NCBI GenBank assembly: GCA_025774805.1
Contig: JALGZR010000025.1
Span: 1-64,000 of the forward strand
Source of the DNA: a bacterium
GTDB taxonomy: Bacteria > ARS69
DNA length: 64,000 bases
Direction of reading: 5' to 3'
Positions 29,358 through 59,261 of the stretch are shown here, piece after piece. Positions within the stretch are counted from its first letter, which is position 1. Each line of letters begins with the position of its first letter. The notes below the pieces were generated by a model. That model made no database searches. It was given only the letters and a program-made list of their open reading frames with translations, and was not told where the DNA came from. The translations under genes were made by a program, and so were the position numbers.

Positions 29358-30799
29358 TCAGCCCGCCCTCTTCACCGACTCTTCTTTCTGGGTCGGGATC
29401 GGCTCGGGTGTCCCGGGTGCGTTCTCGCCCGTCATGTAGCGGTGCATGCTGCGGGCGGCGATCTTGGCCTGGCCCATCGCGCTGATCACCGTCGCCGCGC
29501 CCGAGACGACGTCGCCTCCCGCGAAGACGCCGGGGATCGACGTCTCGAGGGACCGATGGCGACGACCACCGTGTCGGCGTCGATGACGAAGTTGCTGCCC
29601 TCGACCGGAACCGGACGGCGCCGGCCCGAGTCGTCGGGCTCGCCGAGCTCCATGCGAATGCACTCCACCGCGGTGACCCGATTGTCCCCGTCGGTGAGAA
29701 CGCGCACCGGATTCGTGAGCAGGTTCATCACCACGCCCTCCTCCTCGGCGTGGTGGATCTCCTCCGCGCGGGCGGGCATCTGCTCCCGGGCCCGTCGGTA
29801 GACGATCGTCGACTCGGAGCCCAGGCGGAGGGCACAGCGGGCGGAGTCCATGGCCACGTTTCCCCCGCCGACCGTGATCACGTGGCGCGCCGCCGGCGGC
29901 GAGGTCGGATTGCGCGGGAAGTCGTACGCCTTCATCAGGTTGATTCGCGTCAGGTACTCGTTGGCCGAGTAGACGCCGATGGCGTTCTCGCCCGGAACCC
30001 CCATGAACGTGGGCAGCCCGGCCCCCGTTCCGACGAACACGGAGTCGAAACCGCCGTCGTTCAGGAGCTGCTCGATGTTCTCCGTCTTGCCGATCACGTA
30101 GTCGGTGTGGAGCTCCACGCCCATCCTCTTCAGCGCGTCGATCTCGTACTGCACGATCTCCTTGGGCAGCCGGAACTCGGGGATGCCGTACATTAACACC
30201 CCGCCCGGCTGGTGCAGCGCCTCGTACATCACCACGTCGTGGCCCCAGCGCGCCAGATCGCCGGCGACGGTGATCCCCGCCGGTCCCGACCCGATGATCG
30301 CCACCCGCTTGCCCGTGGGTGGAGCGATATCGGGCGGAGGCTCGCCGCCGCGGACCCGCACGTAGTCGGCGACAAAGCGCTCCAGCCGGCCGATGGCCAC
30401 CGGGTCGTGCTTCTTGCCCAGGACGCACCTCTCCTCGCACTGCGTCTCCTGCGGGCAGACGCGGCCGCACACGGCCGGCAGGGCGGTCTGGGTCTTGAGG
30501 CTCTTCGCCGCGGCCTTGAAGTCGCCGTCGGCGATCAGGCCGACGAACGAGGGGATGTCGATCTCCACCGGGCAGCCCTTCATGCAGAGCGGCTTCTTGC
30601 AGTGCAAACAGCGCGAGGCCTCGAGCATCGCCGTCTCCGGCGAGTAGCCCTTGGGCACCTCCTCGAAGTTCTGCGCCCGTCGCCGCGGGGCCTGCTCGGG
30701 CATGGGCTGTCGCGGAAGCACGGGTCTCTTCGGTCTCTTCTTGGCCGTTTTTCTCTTGGGGCTCACGGGATCGCCCGACACCGGCTTCTCCTCCTTCAT
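29358..30799 (-). pseudogene. NfnB/GltD-like NAD(P)H-dependent flavoprotein, frameshifted near the C-terminus
   Basis: The protein resembles NfnB and the glutamate synthase small subunit. Iron-sulfur cysteines occur near the N-terminus (ASRCLHCKKPLCMKGCPVEIDIP; CGRVCPQETQCEERC), then an FAD motif (VAIIGSGPAGITVAGDLA) and an NAD(P) motif (ITVGGGNVAMDSARCALRLG). After 'ADTVVVAIG' the frame is lost. The next frame gives LETSIPGVFAGGDVVSGAATVI, the normal family ending. About 30 residues usually found between these points are missing, so a deletion of roughly 80-90 bp with frame change near 29550 is implied. The start is ATG 30799, overlapping the NuoG-NfnA stop by 4 nt. It would be the third subunit of this fused flavin complex. 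Confidence 0.8.
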
Positions 30800-33300
30800 T
30801 TGCACTTCAGCGTCGCGAGGGCGCCGTGCGAGTCGACATCCTCGAGAGCCTCCTGGGGCATGGCCTGAACCTCCAGCCGGACGAAGGCGCGCCGGCGGGC
30901 GAAGAGCTCGTCCCAGTCGACGGCGTGGCCGTCGAAGAACGGTCCGTCCACACATGCAAACTGGGTCTCACCGTCGACGGAGACCCGGCACGCGCCGCAC
31001 ATGCCCGTGCCGTCGATCATGATCGGGTTCAGCGCGACCTGCAGCGGGACTCCGAGCTCCTTTGTCTTCTCCGAGACCATGCGCATCATGAACGTGCAGC
31101 CGATGGCCACGAACAGATCCGGTTTCGGTCCCGCGCGGTCGAGCTCGACGAAGATCTCCTGCACACCTCCTTTGGTCCCGGCGCTGCCGTCCTTGGTGGC
31201 GAGCCGCAGATCGTCGCACACGGCGCGGAGCTCGTCCTCCATGTGGAGAAGGTAGCTGCTGCACGCCTCGATCACGGCGATCACCCGGTTGCCCGCCTCC
31301 TTCATCGCCCGGGCGAGGGGATAGATCGCGCCGACGCCGTAACACCCGCCCCCGAGCACGACCGTGCCGTACTTCTCGATCGGAAGCGGCAGTCCCAAGG
31401 GACCCGTGACGTGGGCCACGGAGTCGCCCTCGTCCAGGTCGGCGAGCTCGCGGGTCGTTCGGCCGAGCTCCTCGATCAGCAGGGTGATCGTCTCCTCCTC
31501 GGCGCTCCAGTCGACCAAGGTGAACGGCGTGCGCTCGGAGGATTCGTTCGGCATGAGGATGATGAACTGTCCCGGCTTGGCGTGTCTCGCGATGGCGGGC
31601 GCCTTGATCTTGAAGCGGTGGAAGTTGGGCACGACCTCGGACTTCTCGACGATGGCGAAGCCGTCCTTGGGCCGGACGCGCGGCGGCTTCGGGGTCGCCG
31701 GGAGTCCCATCGCCTCCAACGCGGGAACGGTGTCGGCGAGAGGGTGGCCCCGGAAGCGCGCCGGCAGCTCGCGCAGCGAGTCGCGCGGGCTTCCTCGGAA
31801 CGGTCTTGCCGGGCCGTCCCCGTTCAATCCGGCGGTGATCTCGCCCACGGAACCGTCCGCGAAGCTCTCGTCGGCTCCCATGGCGAGAGCCAGATCCCCG
31901 ATGATCGACCACTCGGAACGCGCCAGGCCGGGCGGTCCGCTGACCGGGACCGTTCGCCTCACCTCTCCGTCGCTCGCGCGGAACGTGCCCTCGACCTCGG
32001 AGAGCACCGACACGGGAAAGACCGCGTCGGCGATCTCGCCCGCCGCGGGCGACAGGAAGTCGGCGAGCACCAGGTACTCGATCTTCTCGGCGGTCTCCCG
32101 GTCGAGATAGTCCCCGGTCACGAGCGCCGCGCGGACCCGACCTTCGGCGAAGTCGCGGCGCAGCCGCGGGGGGCGCAGGTCGTCGAAGCCGCCTCCGGCG
32201 GGCACCCAGGCGATACGCCCCTTCATCACCTCCTTGACGAAGCGCTCGTAGACGGCACGCGTCTCTCGCGACTCCGCCTCGTTGGCCACGAGCACGAACC
32301 GCCGGCGCACGTAGCGGCACAGGCGCTCGGCGACGGCCGGAATCGCCTCGTCCCAGTCGGCGGGGACGAGCTCGTCCTCGCTGCGCACCATCGGCCGTTG
32401 CAGTCGGTGGGTCGCGTTGACGAGTTGCGGATAGGCGAAGCGACCGAGAGCGCAGAGGCGCGCGTCCCGCTCGTTGCTCACCATGCGGGTGGAGACCAGG
32501 CGCCCGTCGTTGACTCTGGTCCGGAACGTGCAGCCCTCGGGGCAGAGGGTGCAGGCGGAGATCGGACCGTCCACGGAGTGCCCGTACCAGCGCGCGTATC
32601 GGTCGGTGAGCGTGCCGGTGGGGCAGATGTCGACGCAGGCCCCGCAGAACGTGCACCCCGAGTTCACGTAGCTCCGGCCGAACGCGGGACCGATCTTGGC
32701 CCAGCGGCCGCGGCGCACCGCGCTGATCGCCGGGGCGCCGTGGATCTTCTCGCAGATGCGCCAGCACAGGCCGCAGAGGATGCAGAGGTTGTGATCCCGA
32801 TCCATGAACGGATCGTCCCGCTCCAAGTTGTGGTGCGAGTAGAGGGTGGGCAGGTTGAGGCGGTCGGTGGCCGCGCGAAGCGCGATCTCCCGCACCCCGC
32901 ACCCGTCGCGGTTGCTGCAGAAGCCGCAGCGCGTGGTCGCGCCGGCCTTGGAGGAGCGGGGCCGGTACTTCTCGCAGTCGACTCGGTGGTCGCAGACCAG
33001 GCAGGCGTTCGGGTGACCGCTCATCATCAGCTCCATCACCCGGTCGCGCTGCTTTTGCAGCTCCGGAGTCTTCGTCTGCACGCGCATGTTCTCGCGGGCC
33101 GGCGTCGTGCACGACGTGGGGTAGCCGCGCACGCCGTCGATTTCCACGATGCACATGCGGCACGCGCCGTAGTCGGGCAGATCGGGGTGGGCGCAGACGG
33201 TGGGGATGTCGATGCCCGCTCCGCGAGCCGCTTCGAGCACCGTGCTGCCTTCCGCCGCGGTGACCTTGAGTCCGTCGATGGTCAGCGTGATCGTCTTCAC
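30796..33300 (-). CDS. Fusion: NuoG-like iron-sulfur subunit + NfnA/PyrK-like FAD/NAD(P) domain
   Basis: I start at GTG 33300 (GAGGAAG upstream) instead of the track's 33342, giving 834 residues. Residues 1-80 hold a [2Fe-2S] domain (DYGACRMCIVEIDG). Next come a His-Cys3 region, two [4Fe-4S] sites (CILCGLCWRICEK; CTFCGACVDICPTG) and a shortened molybdopterin-like domain without an evident metal-ligand residue (about 215-540). From about 560 to the end it is an NfnA/dihydroorotate-dehydrogenase-K-like module with FAD and NAD motifs (GGGCYGVGAIYPLARAMKE) and a terminal [2Fe-2S] set (MCGACRVSVDGETQFACVDGPFFDG). The fusion joins a NADH-dehydrogenase-like wire to a bifurcating-transhydrogenase subunit. 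It sits between NuoEF and NfnB in one operon. Confidence 0.9.
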   Translation of the reverse strand: MKTITLTIDGLKVTAAEGSTVLEAARGAGIDIPTVCAHPDLPDYGACRMCIVEIDGVRGYPTSCTTPARENMRVQTKTPELQKQRDRVMELMMSGHPNACLVCDHRVDCEKYRPRSSKAGATTRCGFCSNRDGCGVREIALRAATDRLNLPTLYSHHNLERDDPFMDRDHNLCILCGLCWRICEKIHGAPAISAVRRGRWAKIGPAFGRSYVNSGCTFCGACVDICPTGTLTDRYARWYGHSVDGPISACTLCPEGCTFRTRVNDGRLVSTRMVSNERDARLCALGRFAYPQLVNATHRLQRPMVRSEDELVPADWDEAIPAVAERLCRYVRRRFVLVANEAESRETRAVYERFVKEVMKGRIAWVPAGGGFDDLRPPRLRRDFAEGRVRAALVTGDYLDRETAEKIEYLVLADFLSPAAGEIADAVFPVSVLSEVEGTFRASDGEVRRTVPVSGPPGLARSEWSIIGDLALAMGADESFADGSVGEITAGLNGDGPARPFRGSPRDSLRELPARFRGHPLADTVPALEAMGLPATPKPPRVRPKDGFAIVEKSEVVPNFHRFKIKAPAIARHAKPGQFIILMPNESSERTPFTLVDWSAEEETITLLIEELGRTTRELADLDEGDSVAHVTGPLGLPLPIEKYGTVVLGGGCYGVGAIYPLARAMKEAGNRVIAVIEACSSYLLHMEDELRAVCDDLRLATKDGSAGTKGGVQEIFVELDRAGPKPDLFVAIGCTFMMRMVSEKTKELGVPLQVALNPIMIDGTGMCGACRVSVDGETQFACVDGPFFDGHAVDWDELFARRRAFVRLEVQAMPQEALEDVDSHGALATLKCK

Positions 33301-33311
33301 GGCCGCTTCCT

Positions 33312-35735
33312 CTACTCCACCAGCACGGCATCGAACTTGCACGCGTCACGGCACGATCCGCAGCGAATGCAGTTGTCGACGTCGATCCGGTGGGGTTGTT
33401 TCTTCTCTCCGGCGATGGCGTCGACGGGACATGCGCGCACGCACATGGCGCAGCCCTCGCAGGCCTCCCCGTCGATGCAGAACGTGACCAGCTCGCGGCA
33501 GACGCCGGCCGGGCACTCATGGTCCTCGATGTGCGCCCGGTACTCCTCGGCGAAGTAGCGCAGGGTGGTGACCACCGGGTTCGGAGCGGTCTGGCCCAGG
33601 CCGCAGAGTGAGCCCTTGAACATCGCGTCGGCAATGCCCTGAAGCCGGTCCAGATCCTCCTGCCGCCCGCGGCCTTCGCAGATCTCGGTCAGCGTGCTCA
33701 GCAGGTGCTGGGTTCCGATCCGGCAGGGCACGCACTTGCCGCACGACTCGCTCTCCGTGAACTCCAGGAAGTAGCGCGCCACGTCGACCATGCACGAGCG
33801 CTCGTCCATGACGACCATGCCGCCCGAGCCCATGATCGAGCCGAGCTCCTGCAGGTGCTCGAAGTCCACCGGGACGTCCAGGTGCGGGCCGGGGATGCAG
33901 CCCCCCGAAGGGCCGCCGGTCTGCACGGCCTTGAACTCGCGGCCGTCGGGGCAGCCGCCGCCGATCTCCTCGACGATCGTGCGCAGCGGCGTGCCCATCG
34001 GCACCTCGATCAGGCCCGAGTTGTTGATCTTGCCCACCAGGCTGAACACCTTGGTGCCCTTGCTCTTCTCCGTGCCGATGCCGGCGTACCAATCGGCGCC
34101 GCCGAGGATGATCCGCGGGACGCTGGCCCAGGTCTCGACGTTGTTGATGTTGGTCGGCTTTCCGAACAGCCCCTGCTCGGCGGGGAACGGAGGCCGGGGC
34201 ATCGGCATCCCGCGGCGCCCCTCGATGCTGGACATCAACGCCGTCTCCTCGCCGCAGACGAAGGCGCCGGCACCCTGCTTGATCTTGACGCGGAAGCCGA
34301 ATCCGGAGCCCAGGATGTCGTCGCCGAGCAATCCCAGCTCCTCGGCCTGCTGGATCGCGGTACGCAGCGTGCGGACGGCCAGCGGATACTCGGAGCGGAT
34401 GTAGACATAGCCTTCGATCGGGCTGACCCCGCCGGCGATGGCGTAGGCGCCGATGATCATTCCCTCCAGCACCGAATGCGGATCGCCCTCGACGATCGAG
34501 CGATCCATGTAGGCGCCGGGGTCGCCCTCGTCGCTGTTGCAGATGAGGTAGCGCATCGTGCGGTCGGCCGCTTCACGACAGAAGCGCCACTTGCGACCCG
34601 TCGTGAAGCCCGCCCCGCCGCGGCCCCTCAGCCCCGAGCGCTCGATCGTGTCCACGATGTCCTCGGGATCCCGGCCCAGCACCTTCCCCAGCGCGGCGTA
34701 GCCGTCCACATCGAGGTAGTCCTCGATCCGCGTCGGGTCGATCTTGCCGTTGTTGCGCAGCACGATGCGGTTCTGCCGGGAGTAGAACGGGATGTCCTCG
34801 TACTTGACGATCTTCTCCTTGGTCCGCGGATCCTTGTACAGCAACCGAGCCACGGGCTCACCCGCCAGCACCGACTGCTCGACGATCTCCTTCGCGTCCC
34901 GTTGCGGGTACCTGCGTCCGACCTCGCGGTAGAAGATCCCGTGGGGCTCGACCGCGACCACCGGCGCCTTCTGGCAGAAGCCGTGGCAACCGCTGATCGT
35001 CAGATCGACCTCGTCGGTCAGATCGCGCTCCCTCAGCTCCTCTCCCAGCGCGTGGGCGGCCTCCATGCTGCCCGCGGCACGGCAACCGGTTCCGCCGCAG
35101 ACGATGATCCGGGGACGGTCGGGATGCCGCGCGGCCATCACCTTCGTTCGCAGGTCGTCGAGCTCCGCGACCGAGGAGAGGTGGCGGTCGCCGTTGCGGG
35201 CCACCCGGACGACCTCGTCGGCGCCGAGATCCTCCAGTCCGGTGGGGGCGGCGACCCCGCCGACCTCGAGCTGGTCCTTCTCCTGGATGAGCCCCTCCGC
35301 CTTCCGCGGAGTCATGCGGTCGTAGACCTTGTCGTTGATCACGATGACCGGGGCGAGGGCGCAGGAGCCGAAGCAGGCCACCCGCTCCAGGCTGAACTCC
35401 CGGTCGGAGGTCGTCTGCCCCGGCGCGATGTTCAGATCGCGCGAGAGCTGATCCAGGATCAGGCCGGCGCCGCGCACGTGACAGGCGGTGCCCTGGCACA
35501 CCTTGATGCTGTGCTTGGCCGGCTCGTCGAACCGGAACTGGGCGTAGAACGTGGCGACGCCGTAGACGTCGTTCTCGGACACCCTCAGGTAGTCGGCGAT
35601 CTCGCCCACCGCTTGCTCGGACAGGTAGTGAAAGCGGGTCTGGGCTTCCTGCAGTATGGGAATCAGGTTCTGCCGCGCCCGGTCGTACCCGGAGAGCAGA
35701 CGCTTGAGCTCGACAGCAGGGTGGGGAACGGCCAT
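33312..35735 (-). CDS. Fusion: NuoE + NuoF (NADH-binding FMN subunit) with C-terminal 2x[4Fe-4S] ferredoxin
   Basis: The 807-residue protein begins with a NuoE module (YLRVSENDVYGVATFYAQF; [2Fe-2S] cysteines in CQGTACHVRG and ACFGSCALAP). A thioredoxin-like [2Fe-2S] domain follows (IIVCGGTGCRAAGS..ISGCHGFC). NuoF comes next with the FMN/NADH site (GLRGRGGAGFTTGRKW; NSDEGDPGAYMDR; CGEETALMSSIEG) and cluster cysteines SCGKCVPCRIG. Two ferredoxin motifs end it (CEGCAMCVRACPVDAI; CIRCGSCRDACKFDA). This is the HydB/HndC-like layout with HydC fused at the N-terminus. It would take electrons from NADH or ferredoxin. GAGGTG lies 5 nt before the ATG. No [FeFe] hydrogenase is next to it. Confidence 0.93.
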   Translation of the reverse strand: MAVPHPAVELKRLLSGYDRARQNLIPILQEAQTRFHYLSEQAVGEIADYLRVSENDVYGVATFYAQFRFDEPAKHSIKVCQGTACHVRGAGLILDQLSRDLNIAPGQTTSDREFSLERVACFGSCALAPVIVINDKVYDRMTPRKAEGLIQEKDQLEVGGVAAPTGLEDLGADEVVRVARNGDRHLSSVAELDDLRTKVMAARHPDRPRIIVCGGTGCRAAGSMEAAHALGEELRERDLTDEVDLTISGCHGFCQKAPVVAVEPHGIFYREVGRRYPQRDAKEIVEQSVLAGEPVARLLYKDPRTKEKIVKYEDIPFYSRQNRIVLRNNGKIDPTRIEDYLDVDGYAALGKVLGRDPEDIVDTIERSGLRGRGGAGFTTGRKWRFCREAADRTMRYLICNSDEGDPGAYMDRSIVEGDPHSVLEGMIIGAYAIAGGVSPIEGYVYIRSEYPLAVRTLRTAIQQAEELGLLGDDILGSGFGFRVKIKQGAGAFVCGEETALMSSIEGRRGMPMPRPPFPAEQGLFGKPTNINNVETWASVPRIILGGADWYAGIGTEKSKGTKVFSLVGKINNSGLIEVPMGTPLRTIVEEIGGGCPDGREFKAVQTGGPSGGCIPGPHLDVPVDFEHLQELGSIMGSGGMVVMDERSCMVDVARYFLEFTESESCGKCVPCRIGTQHLLSTLTEICEGRGRQEDLDRLQGIADAMFKGSLCGLGQTAPNPVVTTLRYFAEEYRAHIEDHECPAGVCRELVTFCIDGEACEGCAMCVRACPVDAIAGEKKQPHRIDVDNCIRCGSCRDACKFDAVLVE

Positions 35736-42452: not shown

Positions 42453-42483
42453 GCCGGCGGGAGCGGTCGGCGCTCCCGCCGGC
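42453..42483. terminator. Bidirectional terminator-like hairpin between convergent genes
   Basis: GCCGGCGGGAGCG pairs perfectly with CGCTCCCGCCGGC (13 bp, 5-nt loop). It lies between the OPT stop and the stop of the molybdopterin-desulfurase gene and overlaps the latter's TAG by one base. No T-run follows, so Rho-independent action is uncertain. Confidence 0.55.
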
Positions 42484-45400
42484 TAGCGGCAGCCGACGAA
42501 TCGGACCGCGTTCAGGGACTCCCGCACGACGCTCGCCATCGCGTCCAGCGTGTAGTCGATGTCGTCGTCGGTGGTCGAGCTCCCCAGAGAGAAGCGCACG
42601 GCGCAGTGTGCCTGCTCCTCGCTGAGCCCCATCGCCAGGAGGGCGTGGGAGGGATCGGGGTTGCCCGCCTTGCACGCGGAGCCGGACGACAGGCAGACCC
42701 CGTGGCGATCGAGGAAGAGCACCATCGACTCGCCGCGGATGGCGGGCAGACTCACGTTGAGCGTGTTCGGCAGCCGTCGCTCGACCGGGCCGTTCCGCCG
42801 CGCGTCCGGAAGCAGTTCGAGGATGCCCGCCTCGAGACGGTCGCGCAGCGCGGCCAGCCGCGGGCCCTCCCCCGCCAGGAGCCGTTGCTCGGCCAGCTCG
42901 CAGGCGGCTCCGAAGCCCACGATGCCCGCGACGTTCTCCGTGCCGGCGCGCAGGCCGCCCTCCTGATCGCCGCCGTGCACCAACGGCGTGAGCTCGACCC
43001 CCTTTCGAACGTAGAGCGCGCCGACGCCTTTGGGGCCGCCCAGCTTGTGGGCGGAAACGGTGAGCAGGTCCACGTCGAGCGCGCCGACGTCGAGCGGGAC
43101 CTTGCCGAGCGCCTGAACGGCGTCGCAGTGGAACCGCGCGCCGTGGTCCCGGACGAGGGCGGCGAGCTCTTCGATCGGCTGCAGCGCCCCGACCTCGTTG
43201 TTGGCGGCCATGATGCTGACGAGGCGCGTGTCTACGCGCAGCACCGCCCGGAGATTCGCCGGCGAGACCAGGCCCTCGCCGTTCACCGGGAGCACCGTCA
43301 GGTCGAATCCTCTCCTCTCGAGCGCCCGGCACGTGGCGAGCACCGCGGGGTGCTCGACGGCCGAGCAGACGATGTGACCGCCGGGATCGGAGAGGCTGCC
43401 CTTGAGGGCCAGGTTGTTGGCCTCGGACCCGCTGCCCGTGAAGACCACACGTCGGGCGGTGCAGCCGAGCAGGTGCGCGACCTGCCGCCGGGCGGCCTCG
43501 ACCGCGGCGCGCGCCCGACTCCCCGGCTCGTGAATGCTCGAAGGGTTGGCGCAGGCCCCCTCGAGCCAGGGACGCATGGCCTCGAAGACCGCCGGGTCGA
43601 GGGGCGCGGTCGCGTTGTTGTCGAGGTAGACCGCGCGCGAGACGACGGGGCCCGCGATCGCGTCCTCTGCCGCGGCGTCCCGAACGTCCGGCCGGTCCAC
43701 GGCGTGTCCTTCGGCCCTCCGGACCTCGCACAACAGCGCCTTGTAGACCGGGAAGCCCGAGACCGGATCGAAACGGGCGGGATCGGTGAGAGTGTTCACG
43801 TTGCACTGCCGCCAGGTCTCGGGGCCGTTGGGACCCCCGCCGCCCATCTGCGGATCCACGCAACCGCGAACGATGTCATCGGTGAGTCGGGCGTGGTAGC
43901 GGACGCGCCCGCGCGCGGTCTCGACCCACACGGGATCGCCGTCCCCGATCCCCCGGGCCTCCGCATCGGCGACGTGCATGAGCACGGTGGGGCTCGGCTG
44001 GGACTCGCGCAGACCCTCGACGTTGTGGTGCTGGGAACGGAAGTCGTACGCGGTGCGGGTGCCCGACGTGAGCACCAGGGGGTACCGATTGGCGAGACCC
44101 GGTCGCGCCAGAGGTCCCTCGCCCGGCTCCGTGTAGACGGGAAGCGCATCGTAGCCGTGCTCCGCGAGGGTGCTCGACGCGATCTCGAGCCGTCCGGAGG
44201 GCGTGTCGAAGCCGGGACGCCCGTCGGGCCGAAGCCGGCCCTTCTCCCATTTGCGGTACTCCATGGCGACCGCCGGGATCTGCACGGAACCGCCCGCCGC
44301 CCGAACCTGCTCCAGCGTGAACCCGCTGCCCTCGAGAGCGAAGCGCAGAATCTCCTCCTCGCTCTGCGGAAAGAGCTCACCGTATCCCAGCCTCCGGGCC
44401 AGCTCGCCCAGGATGAGGAAATCGCCGCGCGCCTCGCCCTGAGGCTCGATCATGCGCTCGCGGATCTTGAACATCCCCCCGTAGCGCATGTAGGAGACGT
44501 TCTCGTAGTAGGTGGTCGCGGGGAGCACGATGTCGGCGTAGGCGGAGTCGGCGGTGTGGTAGCGATCGATACAGACGAGGAACTCCAGCGCTCCCAGCGT
44601 TCGTCGCCAGAGACCGGGATCGGGCCACGCGGTGATGAGCGAGCCGCCGAGCACGAGGAGCGCGGTGATGGGGTAGGGGCGTCCCTCGAGCACCGCCTCG
44701 GGCAGCGCGATGGCGTGCGACTCGCCGCGGTACGCGCTGTACACGGGGAAGCGGTCGCGGCCCAGAGCCCGTGCCGGGTTCGGGTTCGCGATCAAGCCGG
44801 AGCGATTCTGCGGGAAGGCGTTTTCGCGCATCCGGATCACGAGCCCGCCCGGAACGTCGAGCTGACCGGCCAGGGCCCAGAGCACCAAGACCGCGCGGAT
44901 GGCCTGGACACCGCTGTCCGAATACTCGAGGCCGCTGTACATGACGGGGCAGGCGCCCCGCGCGGTGGCGATGCGCCGCGCCCACTCCCGGATCCGCTCG
45001 GCCGGGACGCCCGTGATGCCCTCGGCCACCTCGGGTCGGTAGTGCTGCGTCAGTTGCGCGAGCTCGTCGAAGCCCACCGTCCACTCGCGGACGAAGGCCT
45101 CGTCGTAGAGCTCCTCCTCGATGAGGACGTCGATCATGGAGAGCGCCAGGGCGCCGTCGGTGCCCGGCCGAACTCCGAGCCATTCGGCCCCGGCCTGACG
45201 GGCCGTGCCGTTGCGGCGCGGGTCGATGGAGACGACCTCGGCGCCGCGGGCGCGAGCCTCGAGGATCTTGCGGTGCAGGAGCGGAGGAGAGTCGGTGGCG
45301 GGATTCGCGCCCCAGAGAACCACGAGCTCGGACTGCTCGATGTCCACGTCCATCGTGATGTAGAGCTCTCCGAGTGTGGTGTGCGGGGCGATCATGGCGA

Positions 45401-45863
45401 ACGAGACGTAACAGAGCGCCCCGACCCCCAGCGTGTTGGGTGACCCGAACGGGAAGAGGACGCTGGAAGCCGAGGAGACCGCGGTGTCCGCCGGCTGGAA
45501 CAGGTCGCAGAGCGCCATGTCGAATGCGCCTCGTCCCGTGTAGATGGCCGTGGCCTCGGCCCCTCGCTCGGCCTTCGTGCGCTCGAGCTCGGCGACGATG
45601 ATCTCGAACGCGTCGTCCCAGGAGATTGCCTCGAAATCGTGGGTTCCCTTGGATCCCCTGCGCCGCAGGGGCGTCTTCAGCCGATCGGGGTCGTGGACCA
45701 CCCGGGGCGAGTGGCGACCGATCGTGCAGATCATGCCGAGGGGGTGGTCGGGCAGAGGCTCCACGCGGGCCATGCGGCCGTTCTCCGAGCCCACGCGGAC
45801 CCAGCAGCCCGCCGGGCAGATCCCGCAGAGGCCTTCGCGCCACGACAGCTGGCCAACGGTCAC
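42483..45863 (-). CDS. Fusion: molybdopterin (DMSO reductase family) oxidoreductase + cysteine desulfurase; candidate metallopterin-dependent ergothioneine synthase
   Basis: I start at GTG 45863 in a GTGA overlap with the egtD stop (the track starts at 46007); this gives 1126 residues. Residues 1-60 bind [4Fe-4S] (CGICPAGC..C). The molybdopterin-binding region covers about 60-720, with a probable metal-ligand cysteine Cys151 in 'FGSPNTLGVGALCYVSF'. From about 742 to the end it is a NifS/IscS-like cysteine desulfurase with 'YLDNNATAPLDP', PLP-binding Lys940 (SAHKLGGPKG) and catalytic Cys1064 (LSSGSACKAG). From memory, this architecture beside an EgtD homologue was described for the oxygen-independent ergothioneine synthase of Caldithrix abyssi. 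There sulfur from cysteine is inserted into the imidazole of trimethylhistidine. All key residues are intact here. Confidence 0.88.
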   Translation of the reverse strand: MTVGQLSWREGLCGICPAGCWVRVGSENGRMARVEPLPDHPLGMICTIGRHSPRVVHDPDRLKTPLRRRGSKGTHDFEAISWDDAFEIIVAELERTKAERGAEATAIYTGRGAFDMALCDLFQPADTAVSSASSVLFPFGSPNTLGVGALCYVSFAMIAPHTTLGELYITMDVDIEQSELVVLWGANPATDSPPLLHRKILEARARGAEVVSIDPRRNGTARQAGAEWLGVRPGTDGALALSMIDVLIEEELYDEAFVREWTVGFDELAQLTQHYRPEVAEGITGVPAERIREWARRIATARGACPVMYSGLEYSDSGVQAIRAVLVLWALAGQLDVPGGLVIRMRENAFPQNRSGLIANPNPARALGRDRFPVYSAYRGESHAIALPEAVLEGRPYPITALLVLGGSLITAWPDPGLWRRTLGALEFLVCIDRYHTADSAYADIVLPATTYYENVSYMRYGGMFKIRERMIEPQGEARGDFLILGELARRLGYGELFPQSEEEILRFALEGSGFTLEQVRAAGGSVQIPAVAMEYRKWEKGRLRPDGRPGFDTPSGRLEIASSTLAEHGYDALPVYTEPGEGPLARPGLANRYPLVLTSGTRTAYDFRSQHHNVEGLRESQPSPTVLMHVADAEARGIGDGDPVWVETARGRVRYHARLTDDIVRGCVDPQMGGGGPNGPETWRQCNVNTLTDPARFDPVSGFPVYKALLCEVRRAEGHAVDRPDVRDAAAEDAIAGPVVSRAVYLDNNATAPLDPAVFEAMRPWLEGACANPSSIHEPGSRARAAVEAARRQVAHLLGCTARRVVFTGSGSEANNLALKGSLSDPGGHIVCSAVEHPAVLATCRALERRGFDLTVLPVNGEGLVSPANLRAVLRVDTRLVSIMAANNEVGALQPIEELAALVRDHGARFHCDAVQALGKVPLDVGALDVDLLTVSAHKLGGPKGVGALYVRKGVELTPLVHGGDQEGGLRAGTENVAGIVGFGAACELAEQRLLAGEGPRLAALRDRLEAGILELLPDARRNGPVERRLPNTLNVSLPAIRGESMVLFLDRHGVCLSSGSACKAGNPDPSHALLAMGLSEEQAHCAVRFSLGSSTTDDDIDYTLDAMASVVRESLNAVRFVGCR

Positions 45864-46861
45864 CGGGCAATCTTCCAGAGAGCATCGCAGAACCAGCGTC
45901 GCTTGTCGTAGAAACGGCCCTCCTCGACGAAGTTCGCGTGGGCACAGAGGTCGTCGATATCGCTGTCGAAGTACTTGTAGCTGTACTCGGTGTGAAGGGC
46001 CTCCCACGCCTCGAAGTGGAATTCGTCGCGAAGCTGATCGATGCGCACCCTCTGGTCCCGAACACTCACCAGGTAGCTCTTCATGGCGCTGGTGTGGACG
46101 TCGTAGGCGGCGAAGTGGCGGAAGGAAGAGACGTCGAAGTGGCCGCCCAACTCCCGGTTGATCCGTTCGAGGAGATTCAAGTTGAAGCGCGCGGTCACGC
46201 CCTTCGGGTCGTTGTAGGCGCGCATCAGGATCTCGATGTCCTTCTTGAGATCGAAGCCCACGAGAACCCGGTCGCCGGGAGACAGGGCATTGTGAAGGCG
46301 CCGCAGAAACGCCCGCACTCTCGGGCGCGTGAAGTTGCCGATGTTCGAGCCGAGAAAGAGGACCAGCTTGTGTCGCCGGCTCTGCTCGCCGAGCCGACGA
46401 AGGCTGTCGAAGTACTCCCCGACGAGACCCGCGATGGTCAGGGTCTCGTAGCGGCGACCCATCGCTCTGACCAAGCGTTCCATGCTCTTCTCGGAGATGT
46501 CGATGGGCACATAGCGGACGTCGTTGCCGGCGGCCACCAGAGGTTCGAGCAGGATCGCGGTCTTGTTTCCGTCGCCGGAGCCGAGATCCACCACGTCGAC
46601 CGGGCCGCTGCGCACCGAGGCCAGCATGCGTTCACCGTGGCTCTCGAAGATCTGGCGCTCCGAGGCCGTCAGGTAGTACACATCCTGCTCGGTGATTTGC
46701 TCGAAGAGGCGGCTGCCGGTGTCGTCGTAAAACCACTGAGAGGCGATGTGCTTGGGTCGCTCCGACAGGCCGATCAGCACATCGTCGGCGAACGCCTGCA
46801 GTGACGCCGCCTCATCGGACCGTCCGTCGACCGAGAGAGCTCGGTAGCCTTGGTGGGACAC
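45860..46861 (-). CDS. egtD: EgtD-like histidine N-alpha-methyltransferase
   Basis: The 333-residue protein is a SAM-dependent methyltransferase of the EgtD (DUF2260) family, which trimethylates the alpha-amino group of L-histidine to hercynine. Features are 'YDDTGSRLFEQITEQDVYYLTASE' at the N-terminus, SAM motif VDLGSGDGNKT, 'LFLGSNIGNFTRP', 'DLKKDIEILMRAYND' and 'FNLNLLERINRELGG'. These are all family hallmarks. The start is GTG 46861; no Shine-Dalgarno is evident, but TATGAT sits 8 nt upstream. The stop overlaps the molybdopterin-desulfurase start, indicating coupled synthesis of the two ergothioneine enzymes. No aerobic EgtB or EgtC is present in the window. Confidence 0.9.
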   Translation of the reverse strand: MSHQGYRALSVDGRSDEAASLQAFADDVLIGLSERPKHIASQWFYDDTGSRLFEQITEQDVYYLTASERQIFESHGERMLASVRSGPVDVVDLGSGDGNKTAILLEPLVAAGNDVRYVPIDISEKSMERLVRAMGRRYETLTIAGLVGEYFDSLRRLGEQSRRHKLVLFLGSNIGNFTRPRVRAFLRRLHNALSPGDRVLVGFDLKKDIEILMRAYNDPKGVTARFNLNLLERINRELGGHFDVSSFRHFAAYDVHTSAMKSYLVSVRDQRVRIDQLRDEFHFEAWEALHTEYSYKYFDSDIDDLCAHANFVEEGRFYDKRRWFCDALWKIAR

Positions 46862-46869
46862 GACGGGGC

Positions 46870-46875
46870 ATCATA
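46870..46875 (-). promoter_or_regulatory. Possible -10 box for a leaderless egtD transcript
   Basis: TATGAT on the minus strand ends 8 nt before the GTG start, so transcription could begin at or next to the start codon. No -35 box matches well. Confidence 0.3.
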
Positions 46876-46944
46876 GCACCTTTGCGGGGGACCGAGACGT
46901 TCGATCCGCCGAGGGCCTCTCGATTCAGGGGACTCCGGGCTCAC

Positions 46945-47109
46945 CTTGAAGCGGCCGCCGCCACGGTCGTCACCATGAAACGCGAGGCGGTGTCCCGATC
47001 GGCCCTCTTCCGAGCCGACCACCCCTTCCTCTTCCTGATCCGCGACCGGGAGACGGGCAGTCTCCTGTTCCTGGGGCGAGTGATGGATCCGGGGATCGGG
47101 GAGGCGTGA
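46945..47109 (+). pseudogene. Serpin 3' remnant (reactive-centre hinge to C-terminus)
   Basis: The end of the track ORF 46801-47109 reads 'LEAAAATVVTMKR' and then 'FRADHPFLFLIRDRETGSLLFLGRVMDP'. The first part matches the reactive-centre-loop hinge (..EAAAAT..) and the second the C-terminal signature of serpins. Upstream residues do not resemble a serpin, so about 330 residues of the usual 380 are missing. I read it as the 3' end of a serpin gene whose body was deleted. It is short but highly specific. A hairpin follows 30 nt later. Confidence 0.75.
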
Positions 47110-47141
47110 GAGGAGGGGCATCGCCCGCGCGGCCGACGAAG

Positions 47142-50361: not shown

Positions 50362-51813
50362 ATGAGGTGGATAGGTCTCGTCGTGGGGGTGCTCACGGGG
50401 CTCTGGCCGCGGGGCGGCACCGCGGATCCGGCTCTTCGCGCCGATCCCGACACCATACCGCCCACGATCGCTTCGGCTCGCGTCGTCTACGATCCGGCGA
50501 ATCCCGAGGAGACCGCCCTCCTGGAATTCGTCTACAGCGAGCCCGTCGACTGGTTCGCGGCGGTCCACTTCACCAGCTACATCGACGTGAACACGGGTCA
50601 AAACCCGATTCAGGGTTTCTGGTATCCGCCGAACCGCACGGAGATCCGGTTCCCGAGCGGGTTCTACGGCTTCGGAACCTGCGAGCAGGTCAAGGTGATC
50701 AACGTTCAGGACCTCGCGGGAAACGTGATCGTCGACGACGGTGTCGGAAACGTCTTCACGTTTCACCTCGAGCAGCTGCTCGTGAAGGGACGGATGAGCG
50801 AGCGCATGAAGAGCCACGACACCCCTCCTCACACCTTTGCGCTCGAGGGGAGCATGGAGCCGCTCACGTGGTCCCCCCTCTGCGACGTCCAGCTCGAGGA
50901 CGCGGACGGGGACTCGACCTGGGCCCAGAAGGTCTTCTTCTGCGTGCCCTGCACGAGTGCGACCGGCGGCCCCGAGACCGCGGACGTCGAGTTCCGGTTC
51001 TCCCACCAGTGCAGCGATCTCGAGACGCTGCCCGGGAATCGCATGGTTACGCTCGATTCCGCGGCTCATCCCGATGGCCGGGACACGCTCGATCTCTGGT
51101 GGGAGGACGCGGCGCCGGTGAACCATACGAGCCACGACATCGACGTGATCTTCCGGGTCCAGGCCGCACCGATGGACCCCCCCTTCGGCCCGGGCGACTC
51201 GCTCGGCCTCGGCGGCAGCGAGCTTCCGCTGGCCTGGGACGTGCCGCCCGGGACACGCCTTCTGGATGACGGGGTCCCGCCGGACGGGATCGCGGGCGAC
51301 GGTATCTACGCGACCCGGTTGACGTTTCCGACCGGCACGTTCCGCAATCTGCAGTTCCGCTTCTTCCGGCGAGCGGCGGCGGAAACGGCATTCGCGCCCG
51401 AGTGTCCGGGAGATCCCAACCGATCGGCCTTCCTCGACGACTCCCTCTACTCGACGTCGGTTCCGCTCGAGCTGGACCTCCTCTTCGACGACTGCCCCTC
51501 CGCGACGGGTGCGGGCGAGCTTCCGCAAGGCGCGACGCGATCCCTGCTCGGCTCCATCTTCCCGAACCCGGCCCGGTCGGAGGCGACGGTTCCCTTCGCC
51601 GTTCCCTCTCGAACCCGCATCTCCCTCGAAGTGGTCGATGTGCGGGGCCGCCTCGTGCGCCGTCTCCTGAGCGAGGATCGGCCTGCGGGGAGCCATCGAG
51701 TGACCTGGGACGGCCGCACGGAGCGCGGACGAAACGCGCCCTCCGGGGTCTACTTCGTGAGGCTCGTCGCCGGAGACCGGGCGGAGAGCCGCCGGTTCGT
51801 GCTCACCCGCTGA
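50362..51813 (+). CDS. Secreted multi-domain protein with Ig-like, choice-of-anchor-type and FlgD-type domains
   Basis: The 483-residue protein begins with a signal peptide (MRWIGLVVGVLTGLWPRGGTA; GGAG upstream). An Ig-like domain follows at about 30-145 (TIASARVVYDPANPEE..VYSEPVDWF). A beta-domain comes next, and then a block at about 255-360 ('AGDGIYATRLTFPTGTFRNLQFRF') like choice-of-anchor domains that position starch-binding-like modules. It ends in a FlgD-like domain (IFPNPARSEATVPFAV..GVYFVRLVAGD). No catalytic residues are recognised. A surface-binding or structural role is likely. It is convergent with the C25 protease gene; a GGACCCCGG/CCGGAGTCC hairpin lies between them. Confidence 0.75.
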   Translation: MRWIGLVVGVLTGLWPRGGTADPALRADPDTIPPTIASARVVYDPANPEETALLEFVYSEPVDWFAAVHFTSYIDVNTGQNPIQGFWYPPNRTEIRFPSGFYGFGTCEQVKVINVQDLAGNVIVDDGVGNVFTFHLEQLLVKGRMSERMKSHDTPPHTFALEGSMEPLTWSPLCDVQLEDADGDSTWAQKVFFCVPCTSATGGPETADVEFRFSHQCSDLETLPGNRMVTLDSAAHPDGRDTLDLWWEDAAPVNHTSHDIDVIFRVQAAPMDPPFGPGDSLGLGGSELPLAWDVPPGTRLLDDGVPPDGIAGDGIYATRLTFPTGTFRNLQFRFFRRAAAETAFAPECPGDPNRSAFLDDSLYSTSVPLELDLLFDDCPSATGAGELPQGATRSLLGSIFPNPARSEATVPFAVPSRTRISLEVVDVRGRLVRRLLSEDRPAGSHRVTWDGRTERGRNAPSGVYFVRLVAGDRAESRRFVLTR

Positions 51814-51870: not shown

Positions 51871-54168
51871 CTACCTCAGAAGGACCATGCTCCGGGAGAC
51901 GGTGCGCTCACCGGCCTGGAGACGGAAGAAGTAGATCCCCGAGGGACACTCCGCTCCTTCCCGATTCCGGCCGTCCCAGGGGACACTCTTTGAGCCGACC
52001 TTCTGGTGCTCGTTCACGAGCTCCGCGACGGTCCTCCCGTGAACGTCGAAGATCTCCAGACGGACCCGGCCGTCCGCCGCCAGGTCGTACTCGATTCGCG
52101 TACCGGGACCGAAGGGATTCGGGAAGTTGGCGGGCGAGGTCCCCCGCTCGACGAACGTGTCCAGCGACGAAACGTCGACCGCGCTCGAAACTCCCTCCCA
52201 CACCAGGGCCGGATCTCCGTACAGGTTGTAGTCGTACAGGTTCCAGTACTCGAAGTAGTGGTCCCACCCGTAGTTCACGTGGCAATAGTGCTTGGCGTCG
52301 TACAGGGCATCGCCGACCCTCCCGGCGCCGGACGGACCCGCGATCAGGTACCGGTTGAACTCGCAGCAGATCGACTCGGCTCCCCCTGGAGACGTGGGCC
52401 AATCTGCGGAGACCGCCGCGACTCGGGAGGAGCTGACCACCCCCGCGGAGGCGCCGAAGGAGGGAAGGGTCAACAGGTCGACCCCGAGACGTCCCTGGGC
52501 GTTCGGCTCCGGGTAGCCGACGTTGCAGGAGACGGCGAACACGATCGAGGGGTGATCGTCTTCCAGACTGACCCAATCCGCGACGAAAGCCTCGTGGCTG
52601 AAACCGTCCGAGCCGTCCGTCTCGGGCACGCCGTCCCCGTCGTCCCAATCCCAGATCACTCGCCACGCGCCGTTCGGCGATCCGTGGCCCGCCCAGTTCA
52701 CGATTCCGTACTTGCCGTTGCGCCACTCGCTCGTGAATGAGGCCTGGGTCAGGGCCAACCAGGGATAGGTCGACGGGCTCAGACCCTCGTGCTCACAGTA
52801 CCGGGCCATGGGCCATCCTCTCATGAAGCCGGTCTCGATCAGGTTCAGGCAGTCGGCCCCGTCGCGAAACGGAATGCCCATGTAATCCTGGTTCTCGTAG
52901 AACAGGATCGCCGCGCCGTGGAGCGCACAGTTCTTCCAGGCGCCGGTGTCCTGCTCGAACTGGACCAGCTTGTCGAGGGCGTACGTGATCTTGGTCAGGT
53001 TGTTCGTCGGAATCCGGCCGACGGAGATCTCCGCCAGGAAGTCGGGCGTGTCCTGACCGTACTCTCCGTAGTAGCCGTCCCCATCGGAGTCCCAGGACAC
53101 GTCGTCCGGAAACGACAGGTCCGCATAGTAGTAGTCGGTCGGAACGGATCCACCCGGGTTGGACGGGTTGGACGGGTTGTGCGCGTGATTCGTCGGATCG
53201 GCGAAGCAGTAGCGCATGGGGACGCGGGCGTAGTTGCCGATCAGCAGGACGTACTCGATGCCCCAAGGGCCGTAGGAGGCGCGAAGGAAGTTCCGGATCC
53301 TCTCGGCGAAGTCACCGCCGGGCTGATCGCCGATCTCGGGTCCGTTGCTCAGAACGATCCGGACATCGTGCCCGAGACCCGTCTTCCAGCTCACGAAATC
53401 GGAGGAGGTCACGGCGCTCACCATGTCGTCCCGCGCGATGATCACGTAGTCGTGGGTGTCGGGATTCGGCGGGGAGGGCGAGCCGCTCGGTTCGTACAGA
53501 GACGCCATCTGCGCGTAGTTCACGAACAGCCCCTCCGCCCGGTCGTCGGCGACGGTGTCCCGGAGAAGCCGGGCGACGGCCTGCCCTTCGGGGCCGGCGG
53601 GATCCGGAAGCGCGAATCGAATCCGAGCCCGCACCGATTCGTGGTGCGTCAGACGGCCCGAGGCGGCGCGATAGGTGAACGGACAGAACGAGATCGAGAC
53701 GTAGGAGTACTTCCGCAGCGTGCCCGATCCCGTGATCCGCGCGACCACCGGCGGATAGGCTCGATTCGAGCCGAAGACCTCGTCGTGGTTGCGGTTCCAC
53801 TCCCGCCGCATCTCCTCCATGACTTCCGGAGAATGCGTCAGGGGCACCAGGAGGGGAGTCGCGACGATCCGGTGGGTTCCCGGTACGTCGCGGGCACCGG
53901 TCTCCTGCACGTCCAGAGACAGGACGCGCGCGCCGGGGGGCAGGAGAACCGAGAAGTTCCGCGCCGGGAGCATGGGTCTCCCCGGCGCCATGAGGTGGCC
54001 GAATCCATCCATCTCGATCCGGGTGCCGCAGGGCTCGGTCACGAGACGGAATTCACCGGACGTGAGATCGATCGTCTGCACTTCGATTCGCTCCTCGGCG
54101 GTCGAGACCGACGCGAGGCCCGAGCAGGCCAGGCCCACGACCGCGGCGAGCAGGGCGGGTCTTTTCAC
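51871..54168 (-). CDS. Secreted C25 (gingipain-like) cysteine protease with FlgD-type C-terminus
   Basis: The 765-residue protease starts at GTG 54168 with GAGGAGAGG upstream and carries a signal peptide (ALLAAVVGLACSGLASVSTAEE). A propeptide-like region fills residues 30-235. The C25 catalytic domain begins at 'DYVIIARDDMV' and shows 'WGIEYVLLIGNYARVP', the catalytic His495 in NWAGHGSPNG and Cys548 in 'AVSCNVGYPEP' (my counts). The end is a FlgD-like domain (NFPNPFGPGTRIEYDL..GIYFFRLQAGE). Such proteases are exported and surface-anchored, often by T9SS-like routes. A 9-bp repeat encodes 'NPSNPSNPG' in the catalytic domain. Confidence 0.92.
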   Translation of the reverse strand: MKRPALLAAVVGLACSGLASVSTAEERIEVQTIDLTSGEFRLVTEPCGTRIEMDGFGHLMAPGRPMLPARNFSVLLPPGARVLSLDVQETGARDVPGTHRIVATPLLVPLTHSPEVMEEMRREWNRNHDEVFGSNRAYPPVVARITGSGTLRKYSYVSISFCPFTYRAASGRLTHHESVRARIRFALPDPAGPEGQAVARLLRDTVADDRAEGLFVNYAQMASLYEPSGSPSPPNPDTHDYVIIARDDMVSAVTSSDFVSWKTGLGHDVRIVLSNGPEIGDQPGGDFAERIRNFLRASYGPWGIEYVLLIGNYARVPMRYCFADPTNHAHNPSNPSNPGGSVPTDYYYADLSFPDDVSWDSDGDGYYGEYGQDTPDFLAEISVGRIPTNNLTKITYALDKLVQFEQDTGAWKNCALHGAAILFYENQDYMGIPFRDGADCLNLIETGFMRGWPMARYCEHEGLSPSTYPWLALTQASFTSEWRNGKYGIVNWAGHGSPNGAWRVIWDWDDGDGVPETDGSDGFSHEAFVADWVSLEDDHPSIVFAVSCNVGYPEPNAQGRLGVDLLTLPSFGASAGVVSSSRVAAVSADWPTSPGGAESICCEFNRYLIAGPSGAGRVGDALYDAKHYCHVNYGWDHYFEYWNLYDYNLYGDPALVWEGVSSAVDVSSLDTFVERGTSPANFPNPFGPGTRIEYDLAADGRVRLEIFDVHGRTVAELVNEHQKVGSKSVPWDGRNREGAECPSGIYFFRLQAGERTVSRSMVLLR

Positions 54169-57567: not shown

Positions 57568-57593
57568 GGAGGCTCGTGAAAAACGCAGGTCAG
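57568..57593 (-). repeat. Palindromic element family, right-end copy 11
   Basis: GGAGGCTCGTGAAAAACGCAGGTCAG matches the family right end; on the minus strand it supplies the TGA stop of the HdrC-HdrB gene. Confidence 0.65.
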
Positions 57594-59086
57594 GCCGACT
57601 TTTCGAACCGCCGCAGGCACTCCGGCTTGAAACGATGCCGCTCCAGCCCGAGCTCGTCGTAGGGAACTCCCTGGGCGAAGGCGAGGAGCTGCATGTAGTA
57701 GATCGAGGGGATGTGGAAGTCCTCCTCGAACCGCTGCGCGATCTTCATCTGCCCGTGATCGAACTGGCCGAAGCAGGTGGGGCAGATGAGGCAGAGAAGC
57801 TCGGCGTCCTCCTCCCGGACGGAGGTGAGCAGGTCGCGCATCATGTTCGCAGGGAGGTCCTCTTCCTGGCAGGCCTTTCCGCAGCAGAGGTGCCAGTTGT
57901 GATGGCGCACGGGCTCGGCGCCGAGGGCACCGACGAGGTCCTCCATCATTCTCGGGTCGTTGGGATCGTCGACGCGCATCACCGCGCTCGGCTTGAGAAG
58001 ATGGCAGCCGTAGTGGATGGCGATCTGGAGACCCTCCAGAGGGCGCACCACCGAATCCCGAATCCGTCCGATTCCGATGCAGTCGCGGAGAACCGTGGCC
58101 ACGTGGCGAACCCGGGTGGTCCCGTGGTACCGGCGTCCGATGCGGCGAAGCCGCCGGTCCACCTTCTCCAGGAGCTCGGAGTCATGCAGCAGGTGCCAGG
58201 CCTCGGAAAGGGTCGCGGTGCAACCCGAGCAGTTCGTTACGACGTCGAGCCCCAGCTCCTCGGCGAGTGAGAGGTTGCGGGCCGCCACGGTCAGCCAGCT
58301 CAGCTTGTCCTTCGACTTGAAGTAGATCGGATCGGGGCAGCACGAGGCCCCCTCCATGTCCACGAGCTTCACGCCGAGGGTCTCGAGGGTGCGGCGGATC
58401 GCCTTCTCCATCGCGGGATAGCGCGCCGGAATCAGGCAGCCGGGGAAGAATGCGAAGCGGTCGGTTCTCGTCACCGGGTGCGGAGAGATCTCCTTCTCCA
58501 CCACCGGGTCCGGCCCGTCCTCCGGCGGCTCCTCCAGGAGCGTACGGATCTCGTCGACCGGGACGGCCGGCATCGGGGAGAGCCCGAACTTCTCGCGCTG
58601 CCGGTCGACCGCGGTGGAGGCCGGCACCGTCCGGCCCGTGGTCTCGAAGGTCTTGATGACCCGCTCCACCCCGGCGGAGATCAACCCCCGATCGGCCAGC
58701 ATGTTCTTGAGGGAGAGGATCACCTCGACCGGTTTGACTTCCTGCGGACAGCGCTCGTGGCAGTTGTAGCAGTTCGTGCAGAGCCAGAGGACGGACTCCT
58801 CGCCCAAGAGCTCCGGCTCCAGCCCGTACAGGACCTGCAACATGATCTCGCGCGGGTTGAACTTGTCGCTGTAAATGGCCGCGGGGCAATCGCCGACGCA
58901 GGCGCCGCACTGGTAGCAGAAGTTGGCGAGGTTTCCCTCCACCTTCTTCGCCAGCTCCCGCCGGAACTCGAAGTCGACGTGGACGACATCGCCCTCGGGT
59001 CTCGCCCCGTCCTCCGACTTCGGCGTGTCCTCGGTCTTCGGTGCGGGCTCGGGTTTCGATGCGGGCTCAGGCTTCGGTGCGGGCAT
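57590..59086 (-). CDS. Fusion: HdrC + HdrB (heterodisulfide reductase-like)
   Basis: The 498-residue protein has a low-complexity Pro/Lys/Glu start (PEPASKPEPAPKTED..). The HdrC module follows with two [4Fe-4S] motifs (CYQCGACVGDCP; CTNCYNCHERCP). The HdrB module carries two CCG domains (FFPGCLIPARYP..GASCCPDP; YGCHLLKPS..HLCCGKAC; CPTCFGQFD) that bind noncubane clusters in HdrB. In methanogens HdrB reduces CoM-S-S-CoB. In bacteria the substrate of this active site is unknown, and a thiol/disulfide pair is the usual suggestion. The gene overlaps the zinc-ribbon gene by 20 nt and is last in the kor-hdr operon. GGGAGA lies 5 nt before the ATG. Confidence 0.93.
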   Translation of the reverse strand: MPAPKPEPASKPEPAPKTEDTPKSEDGARPEGDVVHVDFEFRRELAKKVEGNLANFCYQCGACVGDCPAAIYSDKFNPREIMLQVLYGLEPELLGEESVLWLCTNCYNCHERCPQEVKPVEVILSLKNMLADRGLISAGVERVIKTFETTGRTVPASTAVDRQREKFGLSPMPAVPVDEIRTLLEEPPEDGPDPVVEKEISPHPVTRTDRFAFFPGCLIPARYPAMEKAIRRTLETLGVKLVDMEGASCCPDPIYFKSKDKLSWLTVAARNLSLAEELGLDVVTNCSGCTATLSEAWHLLHDSELLEKVDRRLRRIGRRYHGTTRVRHVATVLRDCIGIGRIRDSVVRPLEGLQIAIHYGCHLLKPSAVMRVDDPNDPRMMEDLVGALGAEPVRHHNWHLCCGKACQEEDLPANMMRDLLTSVREEDAELLCLICPTCFGQFDHGQMKIAQRFEEDFHIPSIYYMQLLAFAQGVPYDELGLERHRFKPECLRRFEKSA

Positions 59087-59243
59087 CGGACTCTCCCTTC
59101 GCCGCCGGCTTTCGCTTCAGTTGACGGATGCTGTTCGATCGGCAGTCGGGGCAGGACCGCTCCTTGTCCTCGTCTTTGCGCACCTCGTTCTCGTACTCGT
59201 GGCCGCACGCCATGCACCGGAACAGCCAGATCGTGGCATCCAT
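59067..59243 (-). CDS. Small zinc-ribbon protein within the hdr operon (58 aa, absent from ORF track)
   Basis: The frame encodes MDATIWLFRCMACGHEYENE, then 'DKERSCPDCRSNSIRQLKRK' and a basic tail. Two CxxC pairs 22 residues apart form a zinc-ribbon or rubredoxin-like knuckle. GAGGA lies 6 nt before the ATG. It sits 18 nt after the hdrA stop and overlaps the hdrCB start by 20 nt, so it is translated within the operon. Similar small zinc-ribbon proteins are known beside Hdr-like clusters, but no role is established; cluster assembly or electron relay are guesses. It was missed by the track only because it is under the length cut-off. Confidence 0.85.
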   Translation of the reverse strand: MDATIWLFRCMACGHEYENEVRKDEDKERSCPDCRSNSIRQLKRKPAAKGESDARTEA

Positions 59244-59261
59244 CGCTTGTCCTCTGTTCGC

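Follow-up and report, generated by a model that had tools for sequence, protein, structure and literature searches.

An egtD gene and a molybdopterin enzyme-cysteine desulfurase fusion: a probable oxygen-independent ergothioneine operon in an assembly that also holds terminal oxidase genes

We examined a 64,000-nucleotide stretch of bacterial DNA (the window; GenBank assembly GCA_025774805.1, contig JALGZR010000025.1, positions 1 to 64,000 of the forward strand; GTDB lineage Bacteria; ARS69) for two adjacent minus-strand genes, egtD and a gene for a predicted metallopterin-dependent ergothioneine synthase (MES), whose start overlaps the egtD stop by 4 nucleotides. A first-pass annotation, made from the letters alone, had placed egtD and a 1126-residue protein here with this overlap, and both genes were confirmed at those positions. 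The pair and the two modules of the larger protein are as follows.

45860..46861, minus strand: egtD, histidine N-alpha-methyltransferase (product trimethylhistidine), 333 amino acids, GTG start
42483..45863, minus strand: MES, metallopterin-dependent ergothioneine synthase, 1126 amino acids, GTG start
43713..45863, minus strand: N-terminal [4Fe-4S]/bis-molybdopterin guanine dinucleotide (bis-MGD) module of MES, about residues 1-717, from the Pfam order and the match to 2e7z
42486..43646, minus strand: C-terminal NifS/IscS-type cysteine desulfurase of MES, about residues 740-1126 (Aminotran_5, 264 bits)

The Pfam domains of MES were, in order, Molybdop_Fe4S4, Molybdopterin, Molydop_binding, and Aminotran_5, with Molybdop_Fe4S4 at 22.4 bits lying 0.3 below its cut-off of 22.7. 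Both Pfam and matches of the predicted structure (mean predicted local distance difference test [pLDDT], 78.8; predicted template modeling score [pTM], 0.60) place the molybdopterin module and the cysteine desulfurase in one chain. The desulfurase part scored 464.6 bits against the NifS model TIGR03402 (NCBIfam), below the cut-off of that model, and residues 740-1122 matched human Nfs1 (8tvt, Z 52) and E. coli IscS by structure. The 50 rows returned by VIA-align were all desulfurases or selenocysteine lyases on the C-terminal module and were thus uninformative on the molybdopterin part. A search of genome contigs confirmed 103 MES relatives, the best 80 of which were kept for comparisons; among these, 34 were full-length single-frame fusions, 54 to 69% identical to the window MES (L and G numbers below are our labels for loci and genomes). 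Because these 34 further fusions exist, an assembly error as the source of the fusion was ruled out, and the arrangement goes well past what chance would give.

Beliaeva and Seebeck described MES from Caldithrix abyssi (CaMES) (PMC9516567). CaMES needs Cys153, Lys952, Cys1074, and Cys1135, mutation of Cys1097 merely halves its output, and sulfur transfer occurs within one chain (PMC9516567). Ergothioneine was made in E. coli by CaMES and three active homologues, AbMES, EaMES, and hvMES; the class forms a C-S bond and needs its own desulfurase to do so (PMC9516567). The residue dependence was demonstrated for CaMES, and its catalytic cycle is a proposal of the source paper (PMC9516567). The corresponding residues of the window MES are listed below, with their conservation across 35 rows (the 34 full-length relatives plus the window).

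45726..45827, minus strand: Cys13, Cys16, Cys20, and Cys46, [4Fe-4S] ligands (CaMES Cys14, Cys17, Cys21, and Cys48), 35/35 rows
45411..45413, minus strand: Cys151, presumed Mo/W ligand (CaMES Cys153), 35/35 rows
43044..43046, minus strand: Lys940, pyridoxal 5'-phosphate (PLP) Schiff-base lysine (CaMES Lys952), 35/35 rows
42672..42674, minus strand: Cys1064, first persulfide Cys (CaMES Cys1074), 35/35 rows
42489..42491, minus strand: Cys1125, penultimate residue and second persulfide relay Cys (CaMES Cys1135), 34/35 rows

Cys119 was likewise kept in every row, as were the four Fe-S cysteines, Cys151, Lys940, and Cys1064. The tail Cys was missing only from L008; Cys1087, at the position of CaMES Cys1097, was kept in 33 of 35 rows, its counterpart missing from L011 and L018. 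The Fe-S cysteines are spaced by 3, 4, and 26 residues (CaMES, 3, 4, and 27), followed by 105 to the Mo ligand (CaMES, 105), and in the desulfurase the distance from Lys to Cys is 124 (CaMES, 122), then 23 (23) and 38 (38), with the last relay Cys one residue before the C terminus in both proteins. Thus, the [4Fe-4S] site, the molybdopterin domain with a candidate Cys ligand, and the desulfurase with Lys940 and Cys1064 that the first-pass annotation had described are all present by Pfam and residue check, and the Caldithrix enzyme that it had named is real and matches in architecture, residue spacing, and egtD partner (PMC9516567). A longer MES frame reaching 46007 (1174 amino acids) exists, but its added codons lie inside egtD, and the first [4Fe-4S] Cys would end up at a great distance from its CaMES position.

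EgtD matched Methyltransf_33 (PF10017) at 342 bits in Pfam and exceeded the equivalog cut-off of TIGR03438 in NCBIfam (307.4 versus 290.9 bits); its PDB matches were the EgtD chains 4uy6 and 7scf, and it is the single PF10017 match in the host genome. The histidine pocket, whose integrity the first-pass annotation had raised as a point to check, showed no loss. Aligned with MsEgtD, the window EgtD keeps all of Tyr39, Tyr56, Gly161, Asn166, Tyr206, Glu282, and Ser284 (MsEgtD numbering), which we take to be the histidine-binding residues, no paper confirming these names and positions having been found in our literature search. The eighth position checked, MsEgtD Met252, which presumably tunes substrate choice, is Ser262 in the window EgtD. 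With the pocket kept at seven of eight positions, a degenerate EgtD was ruled out, and Ser262 is shared with other sulfuriser-linked EgtDs. Ser-type EgtDs adjoin MES (L022 and L158), EgtB-like formylglycine-generating enzyme (FGE) proteins (L159, L161, and L166), and a rhodanese protein (L160); their neighbours thus cover the three kinds of trimethylhistidine sulfuriser that are known. Separately, two EgtD-like genes (L162:4721-6978 and L163:4581-6854) carry Phe at the Tyr39 position and are divergent from a gene for a haem-oxygenase-like iron protein (PF14518).

Across the relatives, an EgtD frame lay inside the fetched stretch at 22 of 41 MES loci, and PF10017 was present in 33 of 37 MES genomes versus none of six genomes with stand-alone relatives (Fisher p 3e-5). 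The window neighbours (OPT transporter, DUF2914, M29 peptidase, and a 115-amino-acid frame) were considered as parts of a larger conserved operon, but among 80 loci only a single OPT locus matched, and weakly; therefore, the unit comprises just egtD and MES. The 115-amino-acid frame (46774-47121, minus strand) had no Pfam match and was taken as spurious.

Judged from these sequence features, egtD and MES very probably form a complete oxygen-independent ergothioneine operon. EgtD would trimethylate histidine with S-adenosylmethionine, and the PLP desulfurase of MES (Lys940) would take sulfur from cysteine. The sulfur would travel as persulfide from Cys1064 to the tail Cys1125 and on to the metal of bis-MGD, whose protein ligand would be Cys151; there, a metal-sulfido group would sulfurise trimethylhistidine at C2 and so yield the antioxidant ergothioneine in a single step. 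Residues 1117-1126, including Cys1125, had pLDDT under 50 in the predicted structure, which would fit a flexible arm. The survey for molybdenum cofactor genes proposed at the outset found MoaC in the host genome. We infer that the window MES has the same activity in its host, whether or not that host respires O2. The earlier statement that this bacterium makes ergothioneine anaerobically is thus supported for the chemistry and not necessarily for the host, in which two terminal oxidases are encoded. In favour of the ergothioneine operon, no EgtB above cut-off was found in the host genome (best, 41 bits), where EanB-type rhodaneses were not searched for. Several points weigh against it: one pocket position of EgtD is changed (Ser262); the window MES and CaMES were compared via published residue numbers, not by direct alignment or identity; and 4 of the 37 MES genomes, including the single-contig chromosome G161, had no PF10017 match, so a genomic EgtD is not universal among them.

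The pair could instead make a related thiol, with EgtD acting on another amine or to another degree of methylation and MES sulfurising that product. The replacement of Met252 by Ser262 points this way, as does the identity of merely 36% between the window EgtD and the EgtD of the closest MES relative, L002. However, the counterparts of Glu282, Ser284, Asn166, Tyr206, Tyr56, and Tyr39 are kept, the equivalog cut-off of TIGR03438 is exceeded, and Ser-type EgtDs keep company with every known kind of trimethylhistidine sulfuriser, which makes this alternative very improbable. It is also conceivable, at a stretch, that the fusion is a respiratory thiosulfate/polysulfide reductase or a formate dehydrogenase-like enzyme whose desulfurase matures the cofactor only. 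NCBIfam did list PhsA (232 bits versus a cut-off of 694) and Fdh-alpha, both far under cut-off, and the Foldseek TM-scores of acetylene hydratase (2e7z) and polysulfide reductase (2vpw) tie. Because of this tie, the two cannot be told apart by fold; they can be by sequence, the best non-desulfurase PDB match of MES being 2e7z, at 218 bits versus 191 for 2vpw (phmmer). Foldseek E-values likewise put 2e7z (2.1e-45, rank 1) ahead of 2vpw (1.8e-39, rank 14), so the closer similarity to thiosulfate/polysulfide reductases that the first-pass annotation had named as a danger to its claim was not seen. With the egtD overlap, and with C-S bond formation that depends on the enzyme's own desulfurase shown for this class (PMC9516567), a respiratory role is scarcely credible.

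A locus that is inactive, or foreign to the oxidase-bearing organism through a contaminated assembly, is improbable as well. The assembly comprises 284 contigs with an estimated contamination of 5.06%, and full-length MES was not found, among the matches listed, in any of four same-family genomes, three of which have an EgtD 36 to 38% identical to that of the window; MES is therefore patchy in the host lineage. Against this, both frames are intact, every catalytic residue is kept, and G+C is even around the gene pair.

The two genes of the pair did not share one history. In the MES tree, the window grouped with L002, L003, L004, L005, and L040 (SH-aLRT 99, six rows); L048, on a branch of 3.34, had an unsure position. 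In the EgtD tree, L002, L003, L005, L040, L006, and L041 fell within one strongly supported nine-row group, and the window EgtD lay far from that group, among Ser252-type EgtDs. Holding the window EgtD together with these six was rejected (p-AU 2e-68, quick tree). The best matches of the window EgtD, L129/L158 (50%) and L022 (46%), also lie beside MES genes. Based on this conflict between the trees, the two genes recombined and were not inherited as one unit. A possible scar lies directly upstream of egtD.

46945..47091, plus strand: serpin C-terminal stump, profile positions 322-370 of 370

This stump covers just the final 49 positions of the profile and is the only serpin match in the host genome, and the simplest inference is that a serpin gene was cut when the gene pair arrived or was rearranged. 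No G+C contrast marking recent import was seen (0.64-0.72).

Among 28 genomes tried for RpoB, 26 gave a match, and the host RpoB was closest to L036 (Candidatus Eisenbacteria; 70%), with L020 (Latescibacterota; 66%) second by score. The host genome (5.1 Mb) encodes oxidases of the aa3 and cbb3 types: subunit I of a cytochrome c oxidase (674 bits versus an NCBI cut-off of 670.75) with a COX3 gene, and a CcoN-CcoO-type (COX1-FixO) fusion protein. It is important to note that the oxidase genes lie on contigs C33 and C91 and MES on C124; given these separate contigs and the contamination estimate, the link between MES and the oxidases in one organism is provisional. As a separate observation, an HdrBC-type fusion and an HdrA2-FlpD-type protein (57590-62558, minus strand) stand out alongside terminal oxidases in the same genome.

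The source paper states that only anaerobes encode homologues of MES (PMC9516567), which describes the known hosts and is not a property of the enzyme. The oxidase family PF00115 was matched in 26 of 37 other MES genomes (at least 200 bits in 24 and at least 440 in 20), leaving 11 without one; because this family includes NO reductases too, the lower scores need care. Two isolates, Pelotalea chapellei DSM 13688 and Thiorhodococcus minor DSM 11518, are among the matching genomes, as are the single-contig genomes of L006, L016, and L026; in these, contamination is less likely. An oxidase gene alone does not make a host an aerobe. O2-dependent EgtB was over cut-off in 3 of the 37 MES genomes (G170, G172, and G174, of L027, L029, and L031, respectively), and in the L011 genome one 409-amino-acid frame matched EgtB in two sub-cut-off pieces (197 and 157 bits). 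L027 and L031 each come from a genome in which the sole EgtD found adjoins EgtB and none lies in the fetched MES stretch; therefore, one EgtD may serve both EgtB and MES there. Thiorhodococcus minor DSM 11518 combines MES, EgtB, a single EgtD, and an oxidase-family gene.

The stand-alone relatives (L042, L043, and L045-L047) are proteins of ∼740 amino acids, 46 to 50% identical to the window molybdopterin module, that keep the Fe-S and Mo cysteines and end in a tail, D-P-[ST]-L-G-C-x-G. Within the phylum of G183 (Desulfonema magnum), a search across 395 genomes found 13 fusion-length MES and six more stand-alone genomes (L175-L180; 68 to 77% identity to L042) with the tail D-[PA]-[ST]-L-G-C-V-G. 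The tail and an adjoining homologous methyltransferase occurred in all 11 stand-alone genomes, the one neighbour scanned having Trm112p and Methyltransf_11 domains. PF10017 was not found in the five stand-alone genomes tested, nor in the genome of L048, whose stand-alone protein is more divergent and has no such tail. By analogy with MES, the tail Cys may carry persulfide from a separate desulfurase, and the Trm112-type methyltransferase may prepare a different substrate; the stand-alone enzymes may represent another molybdenum-dependent route to a C-S bond, and this route might yield a new sulfur metabolite.

Elsewhere in the window, an arsenosugar radical SAM protein, ArsS (19788-20831, plus strand; TIGR04167, 421 bits versus a cut-off of 300), is directly followed by an M19 dipeptidase. 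A NuoE-NuoF fusion, a NuoG/FAD-NAD-binding fusion, and a GltA-like subunit (29486-35735, minus strand) look like an electron-bifurcating NAD(P)H complex. FlgD_ig/type IX-like C-terminal sorting domains occur at 10172-13186 (plus), 50362-51813 (plus), and 51871-54168 (minus), one of them in a C25 peptidase.

The enzyme class is known; the new elements are the oxidases of the host, the reassortment of egtD and MES, and the sister family. Our literature search, which covered titles and abstract openings with most subscription journals outside it, found nothing on oxidase-bearing hosts of MES or on the stand-alone enzymes. For gene content, the published anaerobes-only rule fails: many MES genomes contain terminal oxidase genes. 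We tentatively suggest, with rather less than even confidence, that MES is not limited to strict anaerobes, serving O2 respirers here and in many other hosts and sometimes standing beside EgtB, that it belongs to a wider family of molybdenum enzymes forming C-S bonds, and that the stand-alone sister branch of this family makes an undescribed methylated thiol or thione. The map of MES gains a lineage nearest by RpoB, among the genomes tried, to a Candidatus Eisenbacteria genome, and the role of ergothioneine and the choice of synthase in cells living with and without O2 become testable.

Compared with known systems, the window MES shares with CaMES, AbMES, EaMES, and hvMES its egtD partner, its domain order, and equivalently spaced Fe-S, Mo, PLP, and relay residues, with a length of 1126 versus 1136 residues for CaMES; it differs from the published enzymes in a host with aa3- and cbb3-type oxidases and an EgtD of the Ser252 subtype. 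Acetylene hydratase (2e7z) shares the fold, the cofactor module, and the Cys ligand to the metal but has no desulfurase and other chemistry (24% identity in the Foldseek alignment). The stand-alone MES-like proteins of Thermodesulfobacteriota and kin also lack the desulfurase and have a Trm112-type methyltransferase neighbour instead of EgtD. The EgtB and EanB routes start from the same EgtD product as MES; EgtB needs O2 and EanB uses polysulfide, and neither is molybdenum dependent, unlike MES. The window pair belongs to the molybdenum-enzyme route already described in 2022.

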